From Oscillospiraceae bacterium (GTDB lineage: Bacteria > Bacillota_A > Clostridia > Oscillospirales > Oscillospiraceae), in assembly GCA_017936985.1 (NCBI GenBank), contig JAGBEM010000139.1, forward strand, positions 1 to 9,461: DNA of 9,461 nt, in the 5' to 3' direction. A program made the translations under genes and the position numbers. Every line of letters begins with the position of its first letter. The stretch's first letter is position 1. Below the pieces are notes generated by a model, which was given only the letters and a program-made list of their open reading frames with translations, ran no database searches and had not been told where the DNA came from. Below, piece by piece: positions 1-9,201 of the stretch.

Positions 1-291
1 CGGGATATCGGTACTGTGGTGCTGCCCGATGCGGACGTGAAGATCTTCCTCACCGCCTCCGCTGAGGTTCGTGCCAAGCGCCGCACCGATGAGCTGCTGG
101 CAAAGGGTCAGAAGGCCAGTTTCGATCAGATCCTCAAGGAGATCCAGCAGCGGGATTATCAGGACACCCACCGGGAACTGGCTCCGCTGAAAATGGCCAA
201 GGACTCCATTAAGGTGGATACTTCCGATTTGGATATTGATGGGGTCGTTGCCGCGATCCAAAAGATCGTGAAGGAGAAGATCCCGGTATGA
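1..291 (+). CDS. cmk: Cytidylate kinase, 3' end (5' part outside window)
   Basis: This is the C-terminal 96 residues of (d)CMP kinase, which phosphorylates CMP/dCMP with ATP in cytoplasmic pyrimidine metabolism. The frame is open from base 1. It begins with RDIGTVVLPDADVKIFLTAS, the family's conserved block (GRDIGTVV-P-A--K-FLTAS), followed by the arginine-rich lid (AEVRAKRR) and the QRDYQDTHRELAPLK segment, which carries the conserved R-D and the PLK motif. The P-loop and CMP-binding N-terminal half lie upstream. The stop TGA (289-291) overlaps the ATG of ispH-rpsA as ATGA, which implies translational coupling. cmk next to an S1 gene is a widely conserved bacterial neighbourhood (E. coli cmk-rpsA, B. 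subtilis cmk-ypfD). The plsC gene often found between cmk and ispH in Clostridia is absent. Identification is firm; only the 5' boundary is unknown. Confidence 0.93.
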   Translation, partial: RDIGTVVLPDADVKIFLTASAEVRAKRRTDELLAKGQKASFDQILKEIQQRDYQDTHRELAPLKMAKDSIKVDTSDLDIDGVVAAIQKIVKEKIPV

Positions 292-2261
292 GCGTGACAG
301 TTGCCAAAAGCGCAGGCTTCTGCTTTGGTGTCAACCGGGCAGTGGAAACGGTAGAAAAGGCGGCGCAAACCGGTGGCCAGGTGGTCACCCTGGGCCCCAT
401 CATCCATAACCGGCATGTGGTGAAAAAGTTTGATGAGATGGGTGTCCGGGTCATCGAAAGTCCCGAGGAAGCCCAAAAAGATATGACAGTCATCATCCGC
501 TCCCACGGTGTATCCAGAGCGGTGCAGGAAGCGCTGCAGGCTAAGGGCGCGAATATTATCGACGCTACCTGTCCTTTTGTCAAACGGATCCATGGGATCG
601 TGGAAAAGGCGGAGCAGGAGGGAAAATTGCCGGTCATCATCGGAACCCGATCCCATCCGGAGGTAGAGGGGATCGCCGGTTGGTGTGGGAACTGCAGGAT
701 CTTTGAGTCGCCGGAAGAACTCCAAAACTGGATCGAAACCGGCGAGGTTAGCCCCGATTCGCCAATTTGCATGGTTTGCCAGACCACTTCCACTGAAAGT
801 TTGTGGAAAAAATGCATCCAAATTGCAAAAAAAGAGTTTACTAACTTAAAAATATTTGATACAATATGCAGAGCAACCGAATTTCGGCAGACGGATGCCG
901 CGCTTTTGAGTGCGGAAAATCAGGCTATGGTGGTGGTTGGGGACGCAAAAAGTTCCAATACCGGAAAACTTGCCATGATCTGCCGGGAACACTGCGGGAA
1001 GGTCGCATTGGTGGACAACGCCAGCGAATTGGATCCGGCCTTTTTTGACGGTGTGCATCATGTTGGAATCACTGCCGGTGCATCCACGCCGGCGTGGATA
1101 ATAAAGGAGGTCAATAAGACTATGAGCGAAATTATCAATGCTGATGCTGTGCAGGAGGAAACCTTTGAGGCACTCCTGGAGCAGTCCATCAAGACTTTAA
1201 ATACAGGAGATAAGGTTATCGGAACCGTTACCGGTATTGGCAATACCGAAGTCCAGGTCGATCTGGGCACCAAGCATGCCGGCTACATTCCCTACGACGA
1301 AGTTAGTGCCGATCCTTCTGTGAAGCCTGAGGACATTCTCCATGTGGGCGACGAGATCGAGGTCTTCGTTGTACGCGTCAACGACCAGGAAGGCACTGTT
1401 CAGCTGTCCAAGAAGAAGCTGGACGGCATGAAGGTTTGGGACGACATGGCTGCCTGGGTGGAGGACAAGACCACTGTGGAAGGCGTCATCACCGAGGAGA
1501 ACAAGGGCGGCCTGGTTGCTACCGTTAAGGGCATCCGCGTGTTCATTCCTGCTTCCCAGTCCGGTGTTGCCAAGGGTGGCGACATGGCCGGTCAGGTGGG
1601 CAAGACCGTTAAGCTGAAGGTCACCGAAGTCAACCGCGCACGCCGCCGTGTCATCGGCTCCATCCGCGCTGTTGCTTCCGAGGAGCGTAAGGCCAACCAG
1701 GAGAAGATCTGGGCTGAGATCGAAGAGGGCAAGAAGTACCACGGCACCGTTAAGTCCCTGACTTCCTACGGCGCATTCGTGGACATCGGCGGCGTGGACG
1801 GCATGGTCCATGTGTCCGAGCTGAGCTGGAATCGCATCAAGACCCCTGCTGAGGTGGTCAGCGTCGGTGACGAGATCGATGTTTACGTCATCTCCTTCGA
1901 CCCCGAGAAGCACAAGATCTCTCTGGGCTACAAGACCGCTGAGATGAACCCCTGGAACCAGTTCATGACCGGTTACAATGTGGGCGACGTTGTGGAAGCC
2001 AAGATCGTCAAGCTGATGACCTTCGGTGCTTTCGCTGAGATCCTGCCCGGCGTTGACGGCCTGATCCACATTTCCCAGATTGCTGACAAGCGCATCGGCA
2101 AGCCTGAGGATGTTCTGTCCGAGGGTCAGACCGTGACTGTCAAGATCACCGATGTGGACGCTGAGAACAAGCGCATCTCCCTGTCCATCCGTGCTCTGAT
2201 CGAGCCCGCTGCTGAGGAAGCAGAAGAGGCCGAGGAAGTCGAAGAGACTGAGGCTGAGTAA
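288..2261 (+). CDS. ispH-rpsA: IspH-S1 fusion: HMBPP reductase fused to ribosomal protein S1
   Basis: A 657-residue two-part protein. Residues 1-278 are IspH (LytB), the [4Fe-4S] enzyme that reduces HMBPP to IPP/DMAPP, the last step of the MEP isoprenoid pathway. Cluster cysteines are C12 (AGFCFGV), C95 (DATCPFV) and C194 (DTICRATE). Substrate-site residues visible are H40, H73, H123, E125, T166/T167, the SSN at 222-224 and S266. Residues about 305-637 hold four S1 RNA-binding domains (about 306-376, 395-462, 480-550, 566-637). Domain 3, with [21 protein letters not shown], is the most typical. The protein ends in an acidic tail (638-657). The fusion is known from Clostridia. The start ATG overlaps the cmk stop. 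All ten cysteines lie in the IspH part and the S1 part has none. Codon usage changes abruptly at residue 279, where an internal Shine-Dalgarno and ATG sit, so a separate S1 product is likely. Confidence 0.95.
837..865 (+). promoter_or_regulatory. Candidate internal sigma-A promoter within ispH
   Basis: TTTACT (837-842) and TACAAT (860-865) are separated by 17 bp. The -10 box is preceded by TG at 857-858, giving an extended -10 (TGATACAAT). The boxes match consensus at 4/6 and 5/6. They lie in a conspicuously AT-rich island (about 809-875) inside an otherwise GC-rich gene. Codons rare elsewhere in this gene (TTA, ATA, ATA, AGA) are bunched here. The -10 box lies across the codons just before catalytic C194. 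Transcription would start near 872 and run about 250 nt to the internal S1 start at 1122. That it acts as a promoter is inference from sequence. Confidence 0.5.
1103..1110 (+). promoter_or_regulatory. Internal Shine-Dalgarno for a free S1 protein
   Basis: AAAGGAGG lies 11 nt before an in-frame ATG at 1122-1124 (M279 of the fusion). It is as good as any ribosome-binding site in the window. It sits exactly at the junction between the IspH domain end ([10 protein letters not shown]) and the S1 part. Caution: the bases also encode I-K-E-V, and the IIKEV-type ending is common in IspH proteins, so part of the match is forced by the protein. Confidence 0.65.
1122..2261 (+). other. rpsA: Nested reading frame: stand-alone S1 protein from internal ATG
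   Basis: Translation from the internal ATG would give a 379-residue protein starting [22 protein letters not shown]. It holds four S1 domains plus the acidic tail, about the size and domain number of the four-S1 proteins of Firmicutes (B. subtilis YpfD type). The short acidic/amphipathic N-terminus before the first S1 domain resembles that of free-standing S1 proteins. All 30 lysines use AAG, and all 12 arginines use CGC or CGT, the pattern of a very highly expressed gene. The preceding ispH part uses AAA, CGG, AGA, AGG and CGA freely. This entry is an alternative product of the same frame as the fusion, not a separate locus. That both proteins are made is inference. Confidence 0.55.
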
Positions 2262-2272
2262 TTAAACGCTAC

Positions 2273-2305
2273 ATACCGGGGCTGGCAAAGTGCCGGCCCC
2301 GGTAT
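2273..2305 (+). terminator. Strong hairpin after ispH-rpsA, terminator or attenuator
   Basis: The arms 2273-2287 (ATACCGGGGCTGGCA) and 2291-2305 pair over 15 bp with a single G-U wobble (2283/2295) and an AAG loop. The following tract, TTATATT, is T-rich but interrupted, so termination may be partial. The hairpin starts 11 nt after the ispH-rpsA stop and ends 10 nt before the ribosome-binding site of the next gene. It would lower expression of the downstream genes, for which I see no convincing separate promoter. Confidence 0.75.
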
Positions 2306-2324
2306 TTATATTATGGAGGTCAAT

Positions 2325-2606
2325 ATGGTCAAACATATCGTTTTGTATACCCTGAAAGAGGGCGTTGACAAGGATGAGGCGGTCAAGTTGATCGCATCTC
2401 ATTTGGAACCGTTGGTCGGAAAGATCCCCGGTCTTTTGAAGATGGAGATCCGCCGGGCTTATCAGGGCATGGATTATGCCCTGTATTCTGAGTTTGAGAG
2501 CAAGCAGGCGCTGACGGATTACGCAAGCCATCCGCTGCACTTAGAAGCGAAGGAACATTTTTGGCATATGCTGGACAGTCGGACGGCTGCCGACTATGAG
2601 GTGTAA
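2325..2606 (+). CDS. Dabb-family (stress-responsive A/B barrel) small protein
   Basis: A 93-residue protein starting MVKHIVLYTLKEGV. The family features are the N-terminal strand with K-H-I-V, the central IPGLLKMEI strand, the LYSEFESKQALTDYASHP stretch and the conserved histidine after it (PLHLEA). These single-domain proteins form dimeric alpha+beta barrels. Known members have diverse roles (plant stress proteins, polyketide cyclases, heme-degrading relatives), so the substrate here is unknown. I chose the ATG at 2325 because GGAGG (2315-2319) sits 5 nt before it. An in-frame ATG at 2313 would include that ribosome-binding site in its own codons. The gene ends 3 nt before the ACT-domain gene, which implies co-translation in one operon. 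No signal peptide is visible; it is cytoplasmic. Confidence 0.85.
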   Translation: MVKHIVLYTLKEGVDKDEAVKLIASHLEPLVGKIPGLLKMEIRRAYQGMDYALYSEFESKQALTDYASHPLHLEAKEHFWHMLDSRTAADYEV

Positions 2607-2609
2607 GAT

Positions 2610-2879
2610 ATGAAAGCGATCGTAACGGTTGTCGGTAAGGACAGAGTGGGCATCATCGCCGGTGTCTGCATCAAGCTTGCTGAGTATAATGTGAATGTTC
2701 TGGACATCAGCCAGACTGTCATGCAGGGTTATTTTACCATGATGATGGCGGTGGATGTCAGCGAAAGCAATGTTCCTCTGGCGGACTTGAGCCGGAATAT
2801 GGAAGAAGCAGGAAACGAAATGGGCCTGTCCATCCGCGTTCAGCGGGAGGATATTTTCGAGGCTATGCACCGAATTTGA
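2610..2879 (+). CDS. ACT-domain protein, UPF0237 family
   Basis: An 89-residue protein made of one ACT domain. The first strand, MKAIVTVVGKDRVGIIAGVC, carries the G-x-D-x-x-G-I-I-A signature that forms the usual amino-acid-binding turn between strand 1 and helix 1. It is followed by LAEYNVNVLDISQTVMQGYFTMMMAVDV, strands 2-3 of the ferredoxin-like fold. The remainder is a helix and a final strand (LSIRVQREDIFEAMHRI). The length is normal for UPF0237. ACT domains typically bind small ligands, often amino acids, and regulate a partner; no partner is proven for this family. The gene is preceded by GAGG (2598-2601) and followed 8 nt later by the UPF0210 gene. The two families are often adjacent in Firmicutes, so a sensor/effector pairing is plausible but inferred. 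Confidence 0.92.
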   Translation: MKAIVTVVGKDRVGIIAGVCIKLAEYNVNVLDISQTVMQGYFTMMMAVDVSESNVPLADLSRNMEEAGNEMGLSIRVQREDIFEAMHRI

Positions 2880-2887
2880 GGTAGAAT

Positions 2888-4246
2888 ATGCTGAATCAAA
2901 AGGATATTTTACAGACGCTGGACATGATCGACAAGCGGCACCTGGATATTCGCACCATTACCATGGGCATCAGCCTGCTGGATTGTTGCGATCCCGACCT
3001 GCAGGTGTGCTGCGACAAGATCTACAATAAGATCACCCGGTGCGCTAAGGACTTGGTCAAAGTAGGCCAGGAGATTGAACGGGAATTTGGTATTCCCATC
3101 GTTAACAAGCGGATCTCGGTAACACCCATCGCACTGGTTGCCGGTTCCTGTGAAACGGAATCCTATGTCCAGATCGCAAAGACACTGGATGCTGCTGCCA
3201 AGACCTGCGGCGTCAACTTTATCGGCGGTTTTTCGGCCCTGGTGCAGAAAGGCTGTACCAGCGGCGATTGGAAGCTGATCCGCTCCATTCCGGAGGCGAT
3301 GGCCTGCACCGAACGGGTCTGCGCCAGTGTCAATGTGGGCTCTACCAAGGCCGGAATCAACATGGACGCTGTGGCAGAAATGGGCCGCATCATCAAGAAG
3401 ACCGCCGAGATCACTGCGGATAACGACGGCTTGGGCTGTGCAAAATTAGTGGTATTTGCCAACGCGGTGGAGGATAATCCCTTCATGGCAGGCGCGTTCC
3501 ATGGCGTAGGTGAGCCGGAATGTGTTATTAACGTGGGTGTGTCCGGTCCCGGTGTGGTGTACCATGCACTGCAAAGCGTCAAGGGTCAGCCCTTTGATGT
3601 AGTGGCCGATACCATCAAAAAGACGGCTTTCCAGATCACCCGGATGGGTCAGATCGTTGGTGTGGAAGCATCCCGGCGCTTGGGTGTGCCTTTTGGTATC
3701 GTAGATCTGAGCCTGGCACCCACCCCTGCGGTAGGTGACAGTGTGGCCCGTATTCTGGAGGAAATGGGCCTGGAGGTTACCGGTACCCATGGTACCACTG
3801 CGGCACTGGCACTGCTCAATGACGCAGTGAAAAAGGGCGGCGTGATGGCCTCCGGTCATGTGGGCGGCCTGTCCGGTGCGTTTATCCCGGTTTCTGAGGA
3901 CGAGGGAATGATCGCCGCGGCAGAAAGCGGAACACTGACCCTTTCCAAGCTGGAAGCCATGACCTGCGTTTGCTCCGTAGGCCTGGATATGATTGCCGTG
4001 CCCGGAGATACCAGCGCAGAAACGATTTCTGCCATCATTGCGGATGAGGCAGCCATCGGCATGGTCAATACGAAGACCACCGCCGTGCGCATCATTCCGG
4101 CACCTGGGAAGACTGTTGGTGACCGTGTGGAAATGGGCGGCTTGTTGGGCAGCGCACCGGTGATGCCTGTGCACAGCGAATCCAGTGAGAAGTTTGTCAA
4201 CCGCGGCGGCCGGATTCCGGCACCGCTGCAGAGTCTGAAGAATTAA
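2888..4246 (+). CDS. UPF0210 (DUF711) 'PFL family' protein, function unknown
   Basis: A 452-residue cytoplasmic protein of the UPF0210/DUF711 family, full length (members are about 445-455 residues). It starts at ATG 2888 after GAGGT (2878-2882). Recognisable blocks are [14 protein letters not shown] (25-36), [16 protein letters not shown] (73-88), [13 protein letters not shown] (110-122), [11 protein letters not shown] (214-224), [15 protein letters not shown] (273-287), [20 protein letters not shown] (299-318) and a C-terminal [15 protein letters not shown]. Databases call it 'PFL family' for fold resemblance to pyruvate formate-lyase; I see no canonical glycyl-radical motif. It is cysteine-rich (14, including the C33-C34 and C41-C42 pairs) but has no clear cluster-binding motif. 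The ACT-domain protein encoded just upstream may regulate it. The family is clear; the biochemical function is not established. Confidence 0.92.
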
Positions 4247-4249
4247 GCT

Positions 4250-5113
4250 ATGAGAAGCGACAGGATCAAACTGATTGCGGTGCTGTGTGCCAGTGCGGTG
4301 CTTTTTGGGGTGCTTGCCTTATTTGTCAGAGAATTTCAGCCCAGTGGGACGGAAAATCTGCAAAACAGTGAACCCTCACAGAGCCAGTTCACCCAGCAGA
4401 CAGAGCAGAGCAGTAATTCAGAGTCAACAGAAACCACAGGCCCCCAGCATGCAAACGAGCCCTTTTCCCAGGATGATTTCATCAAGAATGGGGAATGGAT
4501 GACCTGCGTTACCGCAGATTTCTCCCTTGGTGTGGATGTTTCCAAATATCAGGGAGATATTGATTGGGAACAGGTGGCAGCGGCAGGCATTCGGTTTGTC
4601 ATGATCCGTGTCGGTGGCCGAGGCTACGGACAGGCTGGCAACCTGTTTGCCGATGAGATGGCGCAGAAAAATTACGACGGCGCAAAGGCAGCCGGTCTGC
4701 AGGTAGGTGCGTATTTCTTCTCTCAGGCTATCAGTACTGAGGAAGCAAAGGCGGAGGCAGAGTTTGCATTGGCGCAGATCGAAAAATGGAAGCTGGATCT
4801 GCCGGTAGCCTTTGACTGGGAGTATATCAGCGATACTGCCCGAACGGCGCAGACAGATTCGGTGACCGTGACCGCTTGTGCGCAAGCATTTTGTGACCGG
4901 ATCCAGGCAGAGGGCTTGGAAGCGATGATATATATCCGGCCGGAAGATCAGAAGCTGGATCTGGAACAACTGACATCCTACACTCACTGGGTAGCCTATT
5001 ATAGTGATGTTATGGATCTGCCTTTCCGATTCTCCATGTGGCAGTACACCAAGACCGGCAAAGTGCCGGGCATTTCCGGAAATGTGGACATTAACATCTA
5101 TATACCCCAATAA
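4250..5113 (+). CDS. Membrane-anchored GH25 muramidase (lysozyme family)
   Basis: A 287-residue protein predicted to cleave the MurNAc-GlcNAc bond of peptidoglycan outside the cell. Residues 7-26 form a hydrophobic segment after a basic start (MRSDRIK), a signal anchor or signal peptide. There is no lipobox cysteine in a credible position. Residues 30-75 are a Ser/Thr/Gln/Glu-rich linker. The GH25 barrel runs from about 91 to the end: D96 in GVDVSKYQGDIDW, the catalytic D189 and E191 in FDWE, then FSMWQY (261-266) and VDINIY (279-284). No binding repeats or SLH domains are present, so it looks like a housekeeping or remodelling enzyme, not a phage endolysin. It begins 3 nt after the UPF0210 stop with only a weak ribosome-binding site, which suggests translational coupling. 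A terminator follows immediately. Confidence 0.93.
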   Translation: MRSDRIKLIAVLCASAVLFGVLALFVREFQPSGTENLQNSEPSQSQFTQQTEQSSNSESTETTGPQHANEPFSQDDFIKNGEWMTCVTADFSLGVDVSKYQGDIDWEQVAAAGIRFVMIRVGGRGYGQAGNLFADEMAQKNYDGAKAAGLQVGAYFFSQAISTEEAKAEAEFALAQIEKWKLDLPVAFDWEYISDTARTAQTDSVTVTACAQAFCDRIQAEGLEAMIYIRPEDQKLDLEQLTSYTHWVAYYSDVMDLPFRFSMWQYTKTGKVPGISGNVDINIYIPQ

Positions 5114-5118
5114 CAACA

Positions 5119-5145
5119 AAAAGACCGGCAGAAAGCCGGTCTTTT
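5119..5145. terminator. Bidirectional intrinsic terminator between convergent operons
   Basis: A perfect 11-bp stem: AAAAGACCGGC (5119-5129) and its complement (5135-5145) around an AGAAA loop. On the plus strand it ends in TTTTCATTTTCATTTTT; on the minus strand it ends in TTTTTGTTG. It therefore can stop both the GH25 operon (stop codon 5 nt upstream) and the U32 operon, whose stop at 5157-5159 is 11 nt away on the other side. Confidence 0.92.
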
Positions 5146-5156
5146 CATTTTCATTT

Positions 5157-6374
5157 TTATTTTGCGGAAAGATCCACACTGTGCCGCAGGATCGTAAAGG
5201 GCGGCACGGTTTTGCCCAGGGGGATGTAAAACTTAGATTGAGGCGTTTTGGGCTCATCCAGAGGATTGCCCTCCAAATCGGTCATATTACCGGCGGTTAC
5301 CCCAAAGGGCCGCAGATCCGGGCCGACCACTTCCAGTTCTTCACCGGCAGGGAATTTGTTGCGCAGGCTGCAGAGTGCCAGACCGTTTTCGTCGCAGCTT
5401 TCCACAATGGCACAGACCTGCCACTGACGGATGTAACGGGAGTTTTCGGTATACTGTCCCGGTTCGCCGTAGTAAAAGCCGGTGGAGTAGATCCGGTGGG
5501 AAACGTGCTCCACTTCATTCCGCCAGACTGGATCGATGGGGCGTCCGGCAGCGGCATCATCAATACAGTGCCGGTAAGCGCCGGTAACGATGGCGGCATA
5601 GTAGGCGGATTTTGCTCTCCCTTCGATCTTGATGCAATCTACACCGGCGTCCATCAGATCGTTTAAGTGGTCGATCATGCACATATCCCGGGAGTTTAGA
5701 ATGTAAGTACCCTTTTCGTCCTCATAAACGGGGAAATACTCTCCCGGACGCTTTTCTTCCATCAGTGCATACTGATACCGACAGGGTTGGGCGCAGGCGC
5801 CCCGGTTGGAATCCCGGCCTGTCATATAGTTGCTTAAGAGGCATCTGCCGGAGTAGCTGACGCACATAGCACCGTGACCGAAGGTCTCAATTTCCAGTTC
5901 TTTCGGTGTCTTTTCCCGGATGGTACGGATCTCGTCCAGATTCAGCTCTCTTGCCAGAACCACTCGCGTTGCGCCCAGGTCGTACCAGGCGCTGGCACAT
6001 TCGTAGTTGGCAATGGATTGCTGGGTGGAGATGTGCCGCTGACATTTGGGGGCGTATTTACCTGCCAGGGTAAAAGCGCCCATGTCCGCAACGATCAGCG
6101 CATCCACACCGGCATCCTGAAGCTGTTCCAGGTAGGCAGGCAGATGGCAGATCTCATCGTTACGGGGCATGGTGTTTACCGTTACATGGACTTTGACACC
6201 GTGATCATGGGCGTACTGTACCGCCAGAGGCAGCTCCTCCGGCGAAAAATTTCCGGCGAAGGAGCGCATACCAAAGCTGGTACCTGCCAAGTATACCGCA
6301 TCTGCGCCGTAAAGAACGGACATTTTCAGCCGTTCCATATCTCCGGCGGGGCTGAGTAGTTCCAGTTTTGCCAT
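5157..6374 (-). CDS. U32 peptidase family protein, TrhP-like tRNA U34 hydroxylation factor
   Basis: A 405-residue U32-family protein. The N-terminal barrel begins MAKLELLSPAGDMERLKMSVLYGADAVYL, typical of the family. The family signature E-x-F-x2-G-[SA]-[LIVM]-C-x4-G-x-C-x-[LIVM]-S is matched exactly at residues 163-181 (C171, C178). It is followed by GACAQPCRY with C194 and C198; these four cysteines are the expected iron-sulfur ligands. A C-terminal beta-barrel domain follows (about 310-400). Despite the peptidase label, characterised relatives (E. coli TrhP/YegQ, B. subtilis TrhP1/TrhP2, E. coli RlhA) hydroxylate tRNA or rRNA pyrimidines using prephenate-derived chemistry; TrhP forms ho5U34 in tRNA. 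The start ATG is 4 nt after the mltG stop, with AGGGTGATC upstream. B. subtilis has the same mltG-trhP neighbourhood (yrrL-yrrM-yrrN-yrrO). The exact RNA target is inferred. Confidence 0.85.
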   Translation of the reverse strand: MAKLELLSPAGDMERLKMSVLYGADAVYLAGTSFGMRSFAGNFSPEELPLAVQYAHDHGVKVHVTVNTMPRNDEICHLPAYLEQLQDAGVDALIVADMGAFTLAGKYAPKCQRHISTQQSIANYECASAWYDLGATRVVLARELNLDEIRTIREKTPKELEIETFGHGAMCVSYSGRCLLSNYMTGRDSNRGACAQPCRYQYALMEEKRPGEYFPVYEDEKGTYILNSRDMCMIDHLNDLMDAGVDCIKIEGRAKSAYYAAIVTGAYRHCIDDAAAGRPIDPVWRNEVEHVSHRIYSTGFYYGEPGQYTENSRYIRQWQVCAIVESCDENGLALCSLRNKFPAGEELEVVGPDLRPFGVTAGNMTDLEGNPLDEPKTPQSKFYIPLGKTVPPFTILRHSVDLSAK

Positions 6375-6378
6375 GTGA

Positions 6379-7839
6379 TCACCCTACGGAATTGACGTTG
6401 TCCTGGTGCTGTTTGTAGGTTTCTGCAAACAGGTGCTCACCGATGGAAGGATCCAGAACAAAGTAATAGTAGTCGGTCTCTGCGGGACTCAAAGAGGCCA
6501 TGATGGCGGAAGGACCGGGGTTTGCAATGGGGCCGATGGGCAGACCCTTGACTACATAGGTGTTGTAGGGGCTGTCGATGCCATAGTCCAGGTTTTCCTT
6601 GTTGCCGCCGTGGGCATAAACAACCGTAGCATCAGAGTTCAGATAGGGGAAGTTGCCTGCATTGGCAAGACGGTTGTAGAAAACAGAGGCGATGTCGTAG
6701 TTTTCACCGCTGTGGGCGCTTTCTTTTTGGACAATGGAGGCCATGGTGATCACTTTGTAGAGTGTCATCCTGTTTTGCTCGATATAGCTGGAGCTGTAGC
6801 CGTGCTTGCGCATTTTGGCGGCCATGGTCTCGTTCAAAGAGTCTAGATAGGCCAGTAGTTCTTCGTCCACCTGGTCATCAAACCGGGACAGGAACTTGTC
6901 GAAAATACGCTGAGGAGTATCGTTCTCATAAAATTGGTAGGTATCCGGGAACAGGAAACCCTCCAGACAGTACTTGCTGCCGCGCTCCACACCTTCCAGG
7001 AAATCGTAGCTGGCAAATTCGCTGGTTGCGGCGTAGTCTTCCAGGATCTGAACCGTGGAGACGCCTTCCTTTTCCAGCAGCGCAAAAATCTGCGCGCAGG
7101 TATAGCCCTCGGGGATCACAACCTCTACTGTCTTTCGGTCAGAGGAGGAGGCACGCAGGCCGTTGACGAGCGCATGGTAATCGTACTGCGTGTTCAAGGT
7201 AAAGGTGCCGGCGCTGATCTTCTCGTCAGCATTGGCAAGCTCTGCGTACAGCTTAAAAAGTTCTTTGTACTTGATGAGACCTGCGTCAAAGAGCTTGTCA
7301 GTGACAGATTCTACAGTATCCTCTTGGGTGATGGTGATGGTGATGTTCTGATCCGGTCTGCCAAAAGCCAGCACGTCTGCGGCGCAGACCCAAACCAATC
7401 TGCCCAGAGAGAAGCCGATCAACACAGCGATGGCCAGCCAGATGGCAGTGGCGGCAAGATGCGGAATACCAAAAAGACCGTAGCCTTTTTTGCGCCGTGG
7501 ACGAACCTTACGGACGGGGGCATCCGGATCAACGGGTTCTTCATCCCGGTCGTCTTCCGCGTATTCTTCTACGGCTTCGCCGTTGTCAGCATATTCATCC
7601 CGGTGTTCTGCCATGGGCTCGGGATCATCAAAAACCGGCTCAAAGTCTTCAATATTCCAGTCATCAGACAGTGCTTCCTTCATGATCTCGTCCAGCTCCC
7701 GGTCGGAGATCTGGCCCATATCATGAGAGTCCATGGCAGCTTCGTCGACGGTGAGCTCGGCGCTATGCTCCACAGCGCCAAACAGCTCGTCCAGCCATGC
7801 GCTGTCTTCTTGTTCGTTTTTGAATTTTTCGTTATCCAT
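6379..7839 (-). CDS. mltG: Endolytic murein transglycosylase MltG (YceG-like)
   Basis: A 486-residue inner-membrane lytic transglycosylase thought to cut nascent glycan strands and set their length. Residues 1-108 are a strongly acidic cytoplasmic region, followed by a basic stretch (109-119, RKVRPRRKK), one membrane helix (127-149), a LysM-like domain (about 165-230) and the YceG catalytic domain. Motifs are LEGFLFPDTYQFY (292-304), ASIVQKESA with catalytic E373 (equivalent to E218 of E. coli), VFYNRL (387-391), LPIGPIANPGPSAIMASLSP (433-452) and YYYFVLD (457-463). E. coli MltG is about 340 residues; most of the extra length is the acidic N-terminus, and other Gram-positives also have long cytoplasmic parts here. 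The start ATG is supported by AGGAGGA 7 nt upstream. It lies between the pfpI-type gene (14-nt gap) and the U32 gene (4-nt gap), all co-directional. Confidence 0.95.
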   Translation of the reverse strand: MDNEKFKNEQEDSAWLDELFGAVEHSAELTVDEAAMDSHDMGQISDRELDEIMKEALSDDWNIEDFEPVFDDPEPMAEHRDEYADNGEAVEEYAEDDRDEEPVDPDAPVRKVRPRRKKGYGLFGIPHLAATAIWLAIAVLIGFSLGRLVWVCAADVLAFGRPDQNITITITQEDTVESVTDKLFDAGLIKYKELFKLYAELANADEKISAGTFTLNTQYDYHALVNGLRASSSDRKTVEVVIPEGYTCAQIFALLEKEGVSTVQILEDYAATSEFASYDFLEGVERGSKYCLEGFLFPDTYQFYENDTPQRIFDKFLSRFDDQVDEELLAYLDSLNETMAAKMRKHGYSSSYIEQNRMTLYKVITMASIVQKESAHSGENYDIASVFYNRLANAGNFPYLNSDATVVYAHGGNKENLDYGIDSPYNTYVVKGLPIGPIANPGPSAIMASLSPAETDYYYFVLDPSIGEHLFAETYKQHQDNVNSVG

Positions 7840-7853
7840 AAAGATTCCTCCTG

Positions 7854-8396
7854 TCAGCGGATCACGATCTGCTGCGCCACAGCTTCGCTGACTTCCTTGC
7901 CTTTCAGGGCTTCGATCAGTGTCAAACCAAAGGAAACCGCACAGCCGGCGGAAGTGCCGGTGATCAGCTTGCCGTCTCGAATGCTGTCAGCGTTTTCTAC
8001 CATAATGGCATCAGCCATACCGCTTTCGCAGCCGGGGTAGCAGGTGGCTTTTTTGCCGCTTACCAAGCCTAAGTCCGCAAGAACAGTCGGCCCGGCACAA
8101 ATGGCAGCCACATATTTATCATTATCCCACGCAAACCGGATAGCATCCAGGGCTTCCTGGCTTGCCCGGATAGAGGCGACCCCTCCCAGACCGCCGGGAA
8201 GGACGATCATATCCATAGCGGTCAGATCCATTTCACCCAGGGAAATGTCCGCTTCTACGCCGATGCCGTGACCGCCGTATACGATCTTTCCGTTCAAGCC
8301 CACAGTCATAACGGGAATCCCGGCTCTGCGCAAAAGATCCAGCGGCGCAATGGCTTCTGTTTCTTCAAACCCGGTTCCCAGCAGAATATAAACCAT
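7854..8396 (-). CDS. DJ-1/PfpI (ThiJ) family protein
   Basis: A 180-residue single-domain protein of the class I glutamine amidotransferase-like superfamily. It aligns along its length with DJ-1/YajL: LLGTGFEETEAIAPLDLLRRAGIPV (E14 corresponds to DJ-1 E18), MIVLPGGLGG, and the nucleophile elbow AAICAGPT with C100 (C106 of human DJ-1). The DJ-1 histidine region THP is CYPG here (119-122), as in YajL-type bacterial members. Proposed activities for the family include deglycation, chaperoning and oxidative-stress sensing, some disputed, so I assign only the family. The start at ATG 8396 is set by GGAGG 7 nt upstream; a GTG at 8414 in frame would put that site in its codons. The start lies 2 nt after the tmk stop, and its ribosome-binding site sits inside the last tmk codons, which indicates tight coupling. 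Confidence 0.92.
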   Translation of the reverse strand: MVYILLGTGFEETEAIAPLDLLRRAGIPVMTVGLNGKIVYGGHGIGVEADISLGEMDLTAMDMIVLPGGLGGVASIRASQEALDAIRFAWDNDKYVAAICAGPTVLADLGLVSGKKATCYPGCESGMADAIMVENADSIRDGKLITGTSAGCAVSFGLTLIEALKGKEVSEAVAQQIVIR

Positions 8397-8398
8397 AC

Positions 8399-9067
8399 TC
8401 AATCCTCCAGACACTTCCGTACATGGCGGTAGATCTCTTCGTGAATATCTTCGATGCTGCGCATCTGACCGTCACGGACACATTCAATGACTGTCCAGCC
8501 GTAGAACTGGGCTGCAGCCCGGCCGGTTTCCCGACAGGTGGCAAGATAGGTCATGTCCTGCTCATGAATGTCTGCATGGGTATTGGTGGCAGCTTCCCGG
8601 TGGCGCATCAGCTTTTCGGTAAAAGCGGTGGGCACATCCAGATAAATGGTCAGATCCGGCCGGGGAAGGCCCAGCTTGTCGTACTCGAATTCATAGAGCC
8701 ATCTTAAAAACTCACTTTGCTTGTCTTTCGGCTCCTTGGAGGTCTGGTGAACGGCGTTGGAGGTGGTGTACCGATCGGAAACGATCAGACCGCCCTGCTC
8801 AAACCACTGACCCCAGTCCTGCTTATAGGATGCGTAACGATCCACAGCGTAAAAGGCGGAAGCGGCATAAGCGTTTACATCGGTAGGCTTGTTTCCAAAT
8901 TCACCGCCCAGATACATCCGGATCAGCGAGGAGCTGGGCTCGGAATAACGGGGGAATACCAGCGTTTTGAATTCGGTGTTTTCCCTTTGCAGGCGCTCGG
9001 TCAAAGCCTTGAACTGTGTGGACTTGCCGGAGCCGTCGGTGCCTTCGATTACGATCAGTTTACCCAT
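8399..9067 (-). CDS. tmk: Thymidylate kinase (dTMP kinase)
   Basis: A 222-residue kinase converting dTMP to dTDP with ATP, essential for dTTP supply. It has the P-loop EGTDGSGKST (8-17), FPRYSEPSSSLIRMYLGG (38-55), which holds the dTMP-binding arginine region, SDRY (97-100), the substrate/Mg loop, LDVP (143-146) and a lid-like RHREAATNTHADIHEQD (155-171). The length is normal. I chose ATG 9067 because the conserved MGKLIVIEG start is there and GGGAGGA lies 8 nt upstream. A longer open frame reaches 9196 but runs through the promoter region and shows no family similarity. An in-frame ATG at 9088 would add seven residues and destroy the ribosome-binding site. It is the first gene of the minus-strand operon (tmk, DJ-1, mltG, U32). 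The usual Firmicute neighbours (holB, PII-like darA) are missing. Confidence 0.95.
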   Translation of the reverse strand: MGKLIVIEGTDGSGKSTQFKALTERLQRENTEFKTLVFPRYSEPSSSLIRMYLGGEFGNKPTDVNAYAASAFYAVDRYASYKQDWGQWFEQGGLIVSDRYTTSNAVHQTSKEPKDKQSEFLRWLYEFEYDKLGLPRPDLTIYLDVPTAFTEKLMRHREAATNTHADIHEQDMTYLATCRETGRAAAQFYGWTVIECVRDGQMRSIEDIHEEIYRHVRKCLED

Positions 9068-9097
9068 TTTTCCATTCCTCCCGGGCATAGCAATACT

Positions 9098-9106
9098 ATG
9101 ATAACA
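9098..9106 (-). promoter_or_regulatory. Candidate extended -10 promoter of the tmk operon
   Basis: Read on the minus strand, TGTTATCAT gives an extended -10 (TGn plus TATCAT, 5/6 to consensus). There is no good -35; a run of seven A residues lies about where one would be, which may help polymerase binding. The predicted start is near 9091, giving a leader of about 24 nt that contains GGGAGG before ATG 9067. It fits the position expected for the operon's promoter. Confidence 0.45.
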
Positions 9107-9175
9107 TACAATACCATATTTTTTTCGATTTGTCCACCATTGCGGCAAATTTCCGTTGGCACAAGCATCATGGGT

Positions 9176-9201
9176 CCACTTTGCCATTCTTGGCAAAGTG
9201 G
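9176..9201. promoter_or_regulatory. Perfect palindrome, candidate operator upstream of the helicase promoter
   Basis: CCACTTTGCCA (9176-9186) and TGGCAAAGTGG (9191-9201) are exact reverse complements with a 4-nt TTCT spacer. The palindrome ends on the base before the -35 box of the helicase promoter. No T-run follows on either strand, so it is not an ordinary terminator. The placement suits a dimeric DNA-binding regulator. I do not recognise the motif as that of a specific regulator. Confidence 0.6.

Follow-up and report, generated by a model that had tools for sequence, protein, structure and literature searches.

A predicted rpsA gene nested in frame within the ispH-rpsA fusion of Clostridia

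Internal in-frame start codons are known as a kind, and they yield N-terminally shortened isoforms such as those of IF2 (from infB), ClpB and CheA. In Escherichia coli and Bacillus subtilis, rpsA, the gene for ribosomal protein S1, is found in a cmk-rpsA operon. A fusion of IspH with S1 is likewise already known: the IspH-RPS1 'Rosetta stone' fusion (Rao et al. 2015, PMC4746011; NF000907) belongs to the same gene family as the gene analysed here. According to that report, which lists C. acetobutylicum and C. thermocellum among the carriers, organisms with the fusion have no other ispH or rps1 gene, and the roles proposed for it involve links to the ribosome, RelA and Rho (PMC4746011). The recombinant full-length fusion from C. 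thermocellum was purified and was active (PMC4746011), so the fusion can exist as such. The protein is described there as one bifunctional polypeptide, and the words promoter, start codon and internal are absent from the main text of the report (PMC4746011). A nested gene producing free S1 would alter that reading.

The window, a stretch of 9,461 nucleotides from an Oscillospiraceae bacterium, has the gene order cmk-ispH-rpsA. As in the cmk-rpsA operon, cmk precedes rpsA; here, however, ispH is interposed and fused to rpsA in frame. The fused frame matches the profile for bifunctional IspH/S1 proteins (NF000907) over positions 1-652 of 671. The main features are as follows.

1..291, + strand: 3' end of cmk (cytidylate kinase, PF02224), last 96 codons; its TGA overlaps the ispH ATG (ATGA)
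288..2261, + strand: ispH-rpsA fused frame, 657 aa; NF000907 736.3 bits against a cut-off of 624
288..1121, + strand: IspH (LytB) part; PF02401, residues 3-279
1103..1111, + strand: putative Shine-Dalgarno sequence AAAGGAGGT of the nested rpsA, from sequence match and conservation
1122..1124, + strand: putative start codon ATG of the nested rpsA, codon 279 of the fusion
1122..2261, + strand: predicted nested rpsA, 379-aa ribosomal protein S1 with four S1 domains (PF00575, four stretches)
2273..2305, + strand: terminator-like stem after rpsA, 15 pairs with a T-rich tail

Further along, within 2313-9196, the + strand carries Dabb, ACT domain, DUF711 and GH25 lysozyme genes, and the - strand peptidase U32, YceG/MltG, DJ-1/PfpI and thymidylate kinase genes.

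We propose that two genes share one frame at this locus, ispH and a complete rpsA nested in the 3' part of the ispH frame. Ribosomes initiating at 288 would read through to yield the IspH-S1 fusion, while ribosomes initiating at the internal Shine-Dalgarno sequence and ATG (1103-1124) would yield free S1. A sigma-70-type promoter at 837-865 would, in this lineage, provide an extra, shorter mRNA with the S1 gene only, and with such an mRNA the output of S1 could far exceed that of IspH. Judged from sequence, this arrangement of a nested rpsA giving free S1, read-through from ispH giving the fusion and a lineage promoter boosting S1 is very probably correct. The locus would resemble infB, ClpB and CheA in having a second Shine-Dalgarno sequence and start in the same frame with a C-terminal product. 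Unlike in those genes, the product would be an entire ribosomal protein with no relation to the enzyme domain that precedes it, and the signal is shared by nearly all fused genes sampled, is preceded in part of them by a predicted promoter and has relatives in which the two genes are split out of frame.

Conservation of the Shine-Dalgarno sequence and start codon at the IspH/S1 junction

The first-pass annotation had placed AAAGGAGG 11 nt 5' of an in-frame ATG that lies where the IspH part gives way to the S1 part, and this was borne out: the two elements lie at 1103-1110 and 1122-1124, the PF02401 match ends at residue 279 and the NF005208 match runs from residue 291. Read as AAAGGAGGT, the element is followed by 10 nt and then the ATG, a usable distance for an internal start, and it forms a 9-nt complement of what we take to be the 16S tail. 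It occurs once in the window, whereas shuffled sequences contained 0.04 copies on average, with at least one copy in 9 of 200 shuffles. The match stands far beyond chance because of its conservation, which was examined in a close set and a wider set of genes.

The close set comprised 81 genes: that of the window and the 80 best (L001-L080) of the 156 confirmed loci, with best segments that were 78-88% identical. The peptide WIIKEVNK was among the six patterns used in the scan for this set, so the junction residues are not an independent sample, but the codons still are. On a tree with a length of 10.3 substitutions per site, changes were counted by parsimony. AAG GAG GTC was present in 81/81 genes with an ATG four codons downstream, and synonymous changes in the ribosome-binding codons 269-278 numbered 20 against 158.3 expected. 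A codon-usage model implies 13.8 of 81 for the G-ending pair in the close clade; since that pair was used at 90/206 comparable tripeptides elsewhere in ispH, the model overstates the surprise there.

The wider set was taken from the class of G001, the genome of L060 (Pseudoflavonifractor, class Clostridia), in which 225 of 291 genomes scored above the fusion cut-off. Reading started at the highest scores and covered 148 of these 225 genomes; G001 was excluded as a repeat of L060. A first batch held 110 class genes (L085-L194). The second held 65 fused genes, 38 from more class genomes and 27 from a phylum sample. In the latter 118 genomes matched, of which 30 were read, giving 27 fused and 3 unfused genes. 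Alignment of the junction across fused genes had been proposed as a check at first pass, and in this alignment the Shine-Dalgarno sequence and start were kept above synonymous expectation: xxG-GAG-G was found in 172/175 of these Bacillota genes where codon usage predicts about 19. The first batch contributed 109/110 (12.3 expected from each gene's own codon usage) and the second 63/65 (7.0 expected). At comparable tripeptides elsewhere in ispH of the class genes, the G-ending motif form was used in 22/192 cases. Codon 274 (GAG) had the top z (17.7) among 606 columns tested; together with codon 273 it also changed least often on the class tree among the two-fold columns tested there.

A start codon was present in 175/175 of these genes, either as ATG or GTG at the junction codon or as ATG one codon earlier. 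The junction codon was ATG in 108 of the first 110 genes and GTG in 2, both with an ATG one codon earlier; the second 65 genes had ATG at the junction codon in 60 cases, GTG in 1 and ATG one codon earlier in 4 (L243, L244, L258 and L263). Free use of GAA or AAA codons, or of non-ATG residues at the junction, had been named at first pass as speaking against internal initiation; it was not seen. The exact motif was missing from three fused genes. L109 lacks it, yet has GGAGGGG plus an ATG six codons downstream, and its start site seems to have moved; L239 has AAAGGA closer to the ATG; and in L284 Glu is replaced by Gly, with the sequence still G-rich.

The same annotation had cautioned that the bases also encode a conserved Lys-Glu-Val at the end of IspH, so that the match might be an accident of the protein sequence. 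These residues are indeed frequent at this position, and the close clade favours the G-ending pair elsewhere as noted above. The wider set counters this caveat, because the residue preceding Glu varies (Lys, Glu, Arg, Gln or Gly among the 175 fused genes) while the third base is kept: the first motif codon was AAG, GAG, AGG, CGG, GGG or CAG in 173/175, the exceptions being L109 (AAA) and L239 (AGA). With AAG GAG GTC invariant in the close genes, the motif in 172/175 and, as described below, in just 1/17 control genes, an accidental match is extremely improbable. Conservation at the nucleotide level thus goes beyond that of the protein, as for an internal initiation site.

A perfect 18-nt palindrome, ATCCACGCCGGCGTGGAT at 1083-1100, lies just 5' of the Shine-Dalgarno sequence and folds in the window. 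It was considered as a conserved RNA hairpin at the start and rejected, as its synonymous sites vary freely in the close genes (codons 266/267 with 29/31 changes); with synonymous sites varying in relatives, the palindrome is probably due to chance. The fold was ordinary (z -0.40), and an Rfam search gave no family at gathering score. In the same stretch, the GCG codon of Ala269 (1092-1094) was invariant in 81/81 close genes without a clear reason.

Unfused relatives and control ispH genes

Of the class genomes below the fusion-level score, 51 were checked; an ispH match was present in 39, and 30 loci were obtained. Three of these (L196, L207 and L222) were left out, and L205 and L219, fused genes whose frame reaches the end of the available sequence, were also set aside. 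In 11 unfused relatives from other Clostridia (L198, L199, L203, L204, L206, L212, L216, L217, L220, L221 and L223), ispH and rpsA overlap in different frames, seven in one frame and four in the other, so that no in-frame fusion is encoded. The same Shine-Dalgarno sequence stands in the same ispH codons with the S1 start soon after: in 11/11 cases GGAGG within ispH precedes the homologous ATG, from which the S1 frame is read, and the N-termini include MSELTFEQMLEESLKT. For L220 the start was taken as the ATG behind GGAGGTT at the usual place, the automated pick having been an upstream TTG. Going by these sequences, the frame of S1 relative to ispH is immaterial to the start site.

As controls we used 17 ispH genes without an S1 start at this place, 14 from the remaining 25 unfused loci together with L266, L268 and L269. 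In 13/17 control loci no S1 match was found within at least 1440 nt 3' of ispH; at L218 the S1 match lies only beyond a Cmk-like stretch, and at L195, L211 and L266 it starts 3' of the ispH stop. The motif was found in 1/17 of these genes (Fisher p 7e-20, with phylogeny ignored), and in 7/17 an Asp codon replaces Glu, which further counters the caveat that the conserved residues dictate the match. The site is thus tied to S1 initiation and not to IspH. The first-pass reading of a second in-frame product, a 379-residue free S1, gains support from the junction conservation and the 11 out-of-frame relatives alike.

The existence of relatives with a separate overlapping rpsA also suggests that the signal may be ancestral, in which case the elements within fused genes could be unused relics of a formerly separate rpsA. 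Against this, over 10.3 substitutions per site most synonymous sites of ispH change freely and the signal sites do not. Moreover, the site in L109 has apparently moved with replacement, and in L243, L244, L258 and L263 the start has shifted with the ATG kept. We consider disused relics very improbable and a start signal in use the better account of the junction.

Two further arrangements were noted in the sampled genomes. At L218 (genome G256), ispH is in frame with a cytidylate-kinase-like P-loop stretch in an ORF of 512 aa, with the S1 match beyond it; this is an apparent IspH-Cmk fusion, the kinase having been recognised by eye. Genome G351 has two ispH matches, one in a 644-aa frame (fusion length) and one in a 301-aa frame.

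A predicted promoter within ispH codons

Upstream of the junction, a predicted promoter that was absent from the first-pass annotation lies at 837-865 (TTTACT-N17-TACAAT with an extended -10 TG). Its -10 sits within the codons of the IspH F-D-T-I-C motif. Its parts, with codon counts from the close set, are listed here.

827..833, + strand: A-tract AAAAAAA directly 5' of the -35; codon 181 AAA in 81/81, codon 182 AAA in 79/81
837..842, + strand: -35 box TTTACT of the predicted internal promoter; TTT in 81/81, ACT in 79/80 Thr codons
857..865, + strand: extended -10 TGATACAAT, with TG at 857-858 and TACAAT at 860-865, in the F-D-T-I codons of IspH

The synonymous-entropy profile of ispH lay mostly at 0.6-0.9 of expectation and had two deep troughs, one at the ribosome-binding site and start and the other at 800-875 inside ispH. 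The lowest ratios in 10-codon windows were 0.10 at the promoter and 0.13 at the ribosome-binding site, whereas the lowest outside both was 0.50. Promoter codons 181-193 were nearly frozen across the 81 close genes, with 31 changes against 181.0 expected, in contrast to comparison codons 198-210 (151 changes against 152.3 expected). Within the -10, GAT was kept in 81/81, ACA in 80/81 and ATA in 81/81, with at most one tree change each. Codons of the boxes changed 0-1 times, while spacer codons 186, 187 and 189 changed 8, 10 and 19 times. Codon 188 (AAA), which is also part of the spacer, had zero changes. The element thus has the form of a sigma-70/sigma-A promoter, with hexamers 17 nt apart, boxes that are kept and a spacer that varies except at codon 188. 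The A-tract would be UP-element-like in function. A lesser synonymous dip at codons 252-262 (1041-1073), at 0.50 of expectation, was also seen and has no explanation.

The -10 recurs in 51/110 class-wide genes. Among the 60 class genes of the Asp type, GAT-ACA-ATA was used in 49 against 6.5 expected, whereas among the 43 Asn-type genes with N-T-I, AAT-ACA-ATA was used in 6 against 6.1 expected. In the 51 GATACAAT genes the mean -35 score was above all 500 codon resamplings. The 46/110 class genes with Asn at the -10 position had no clear -35 excess (38/500 resamplings reached the observed value), and no alternative shared promoter stood out when one was sought in the Asn-type genes. The promoter label changed only 7 times on the class tree, consistent with a clade-wise spread. 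The internal ribosome-binding site is thus general, and this predicted promoter belongs to about half of the 110 class genes and to this lineage.

Less specific tests gave little signal. A simple promoter scan of 1-4300 found no excess (3 sites against 2.8 expected), and whole-ispH codon shuffling gave weak promoter p values both in close genes (median 0.12; 13/81 at <=0.05) and in class genes (median 0.28; 13/110 at <=0.05). Whole-gene shuffling is too blunt here, since it leaves the F-D-T-I residues in place and scatters AT-rich codons; the column-wise tests took its place for the promoter.

Shine-Dalgarno-like sequences within genes have been proposed to pause ribosomes, and a domain junction is a plausible place for a pause; the purine-rich stretch could then slow translation between the IspH and S1 domains for folding, with no start involved. 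Such a pause needs neither an ATG or GTG at a near-fixed distance (175/175) nor an upstream promoter, nor an rpsA that opens there out of frame. A pause in place of a start is decidedly unlikely, and an internal rpsA start accounts for these features together.

The nested S1 product and the reading of the fusion

On its own, the predicted nested product scores above the curated threshold of the stand-alone S1 family (NF005208, 399.7 bits against 368). Its codon usage differs from that of the IspH part: in the window the effective number of codons was 51.6 for ispH and 32.2 for S1, which makes S1 the most biased among 11 segments of the window that were tested. The number was lower in S1 in 81/81 close genes (means of 50.3 for ispH and 33.3 for S1) and in 93/110 class genes (means of 48.5 and 43.7), with no drop in S1 in 17/110 class genes. 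A step at the junction is unexpected if both parts are always translated together; extra translation of S1 alone would explain it.

Free S1 might instead be cut from the fusion at the linker, with no internal initiation, and the stretch after the junction is variable among class genes, which fits a flexible linker. Proteolysis, however, leaves unexplained both the nucleotide constraint on the Shine-Dalgarno sequence, start and promoter and the step in codon bias; as the source of free S1 it is highly improbable compared with initiation at the internal ATG. In the proposed model, the Shine-Dalgarno sequence with its start and the promoter would be active in the cell, and free S1 would outnumber the fusion. 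The conserved internal start speaks against the full-length protein being the sole product. A second full-length S1 match was found in none of 6/6 fusion genomes, in agreement with the earlier report (PMC4746011).

Across much of the class Clostridia, the label 'bifunctional IspH-S1' probably hides two genes, with S1 made chiefly as the free protein. In IspH, an essential Fe-S enzyme, codons and even residues (F-D-T-I-C in the core and K/E-E-V at the end) would be dictated by the rpsA promoter and ribosome-binding site, making the fusion mainly a by-product of the shared frame. In the literature searched, neither an internal start nor a promoter turned up as described for this fusion gene, nor did transcription start site data; within that literature, the nested gene and its broad conservation are new, as are the relatives with out-of-frame genes and the promoter in enzyme codons. 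If the model is correct, annotation has been misread in hundreds of genomes, the 'Rosetta stone' link of isoprenoid synthesis to the ribosome amounts at least in part to a pair of nested genes, and a source of free S1 in Clostridia is identified. It would further illustrate clearly how the promoter and ribosome-binding site of one gene can constrain the codons and residues of an enzyme. The question of the fusion's purpose, dating from 2015, becomes directly testable through synonymous mutations.

A protein of 46 kDa was purified along with the recombinant C. thermocellum fusion and was considered here as free S1. This was rejected: the authors identified the protein as Rho of E. coli, with coverage of 69% (PMC4746011), and it is therefore not counted as evidence for free S1.

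The N-terminus of the predicted free S1 can be compared with that of E. coli, in which an N-terminal segment of S1 (the S2-docking helix) anchors the protein to ribosomal protein S2 (PMC4288201). One feature is added to those above.

1158..1193, + strand: N-terminal segment of the predicted nested S1, 12 residues; aligns with E. coli S1 chain residues 3-14

Counted from 1122, the protein has a 12-residue lead; alignment to E. coli S1 then sets in at chain residue 3 of the latter, and by sequence alone a putative docking segment is recognisable from residue 13 of the nested S1 onward. The free N-terminus may permit docking on S2 and, by analogy, would be better suited to it than an N-terminus placed behind IspH.
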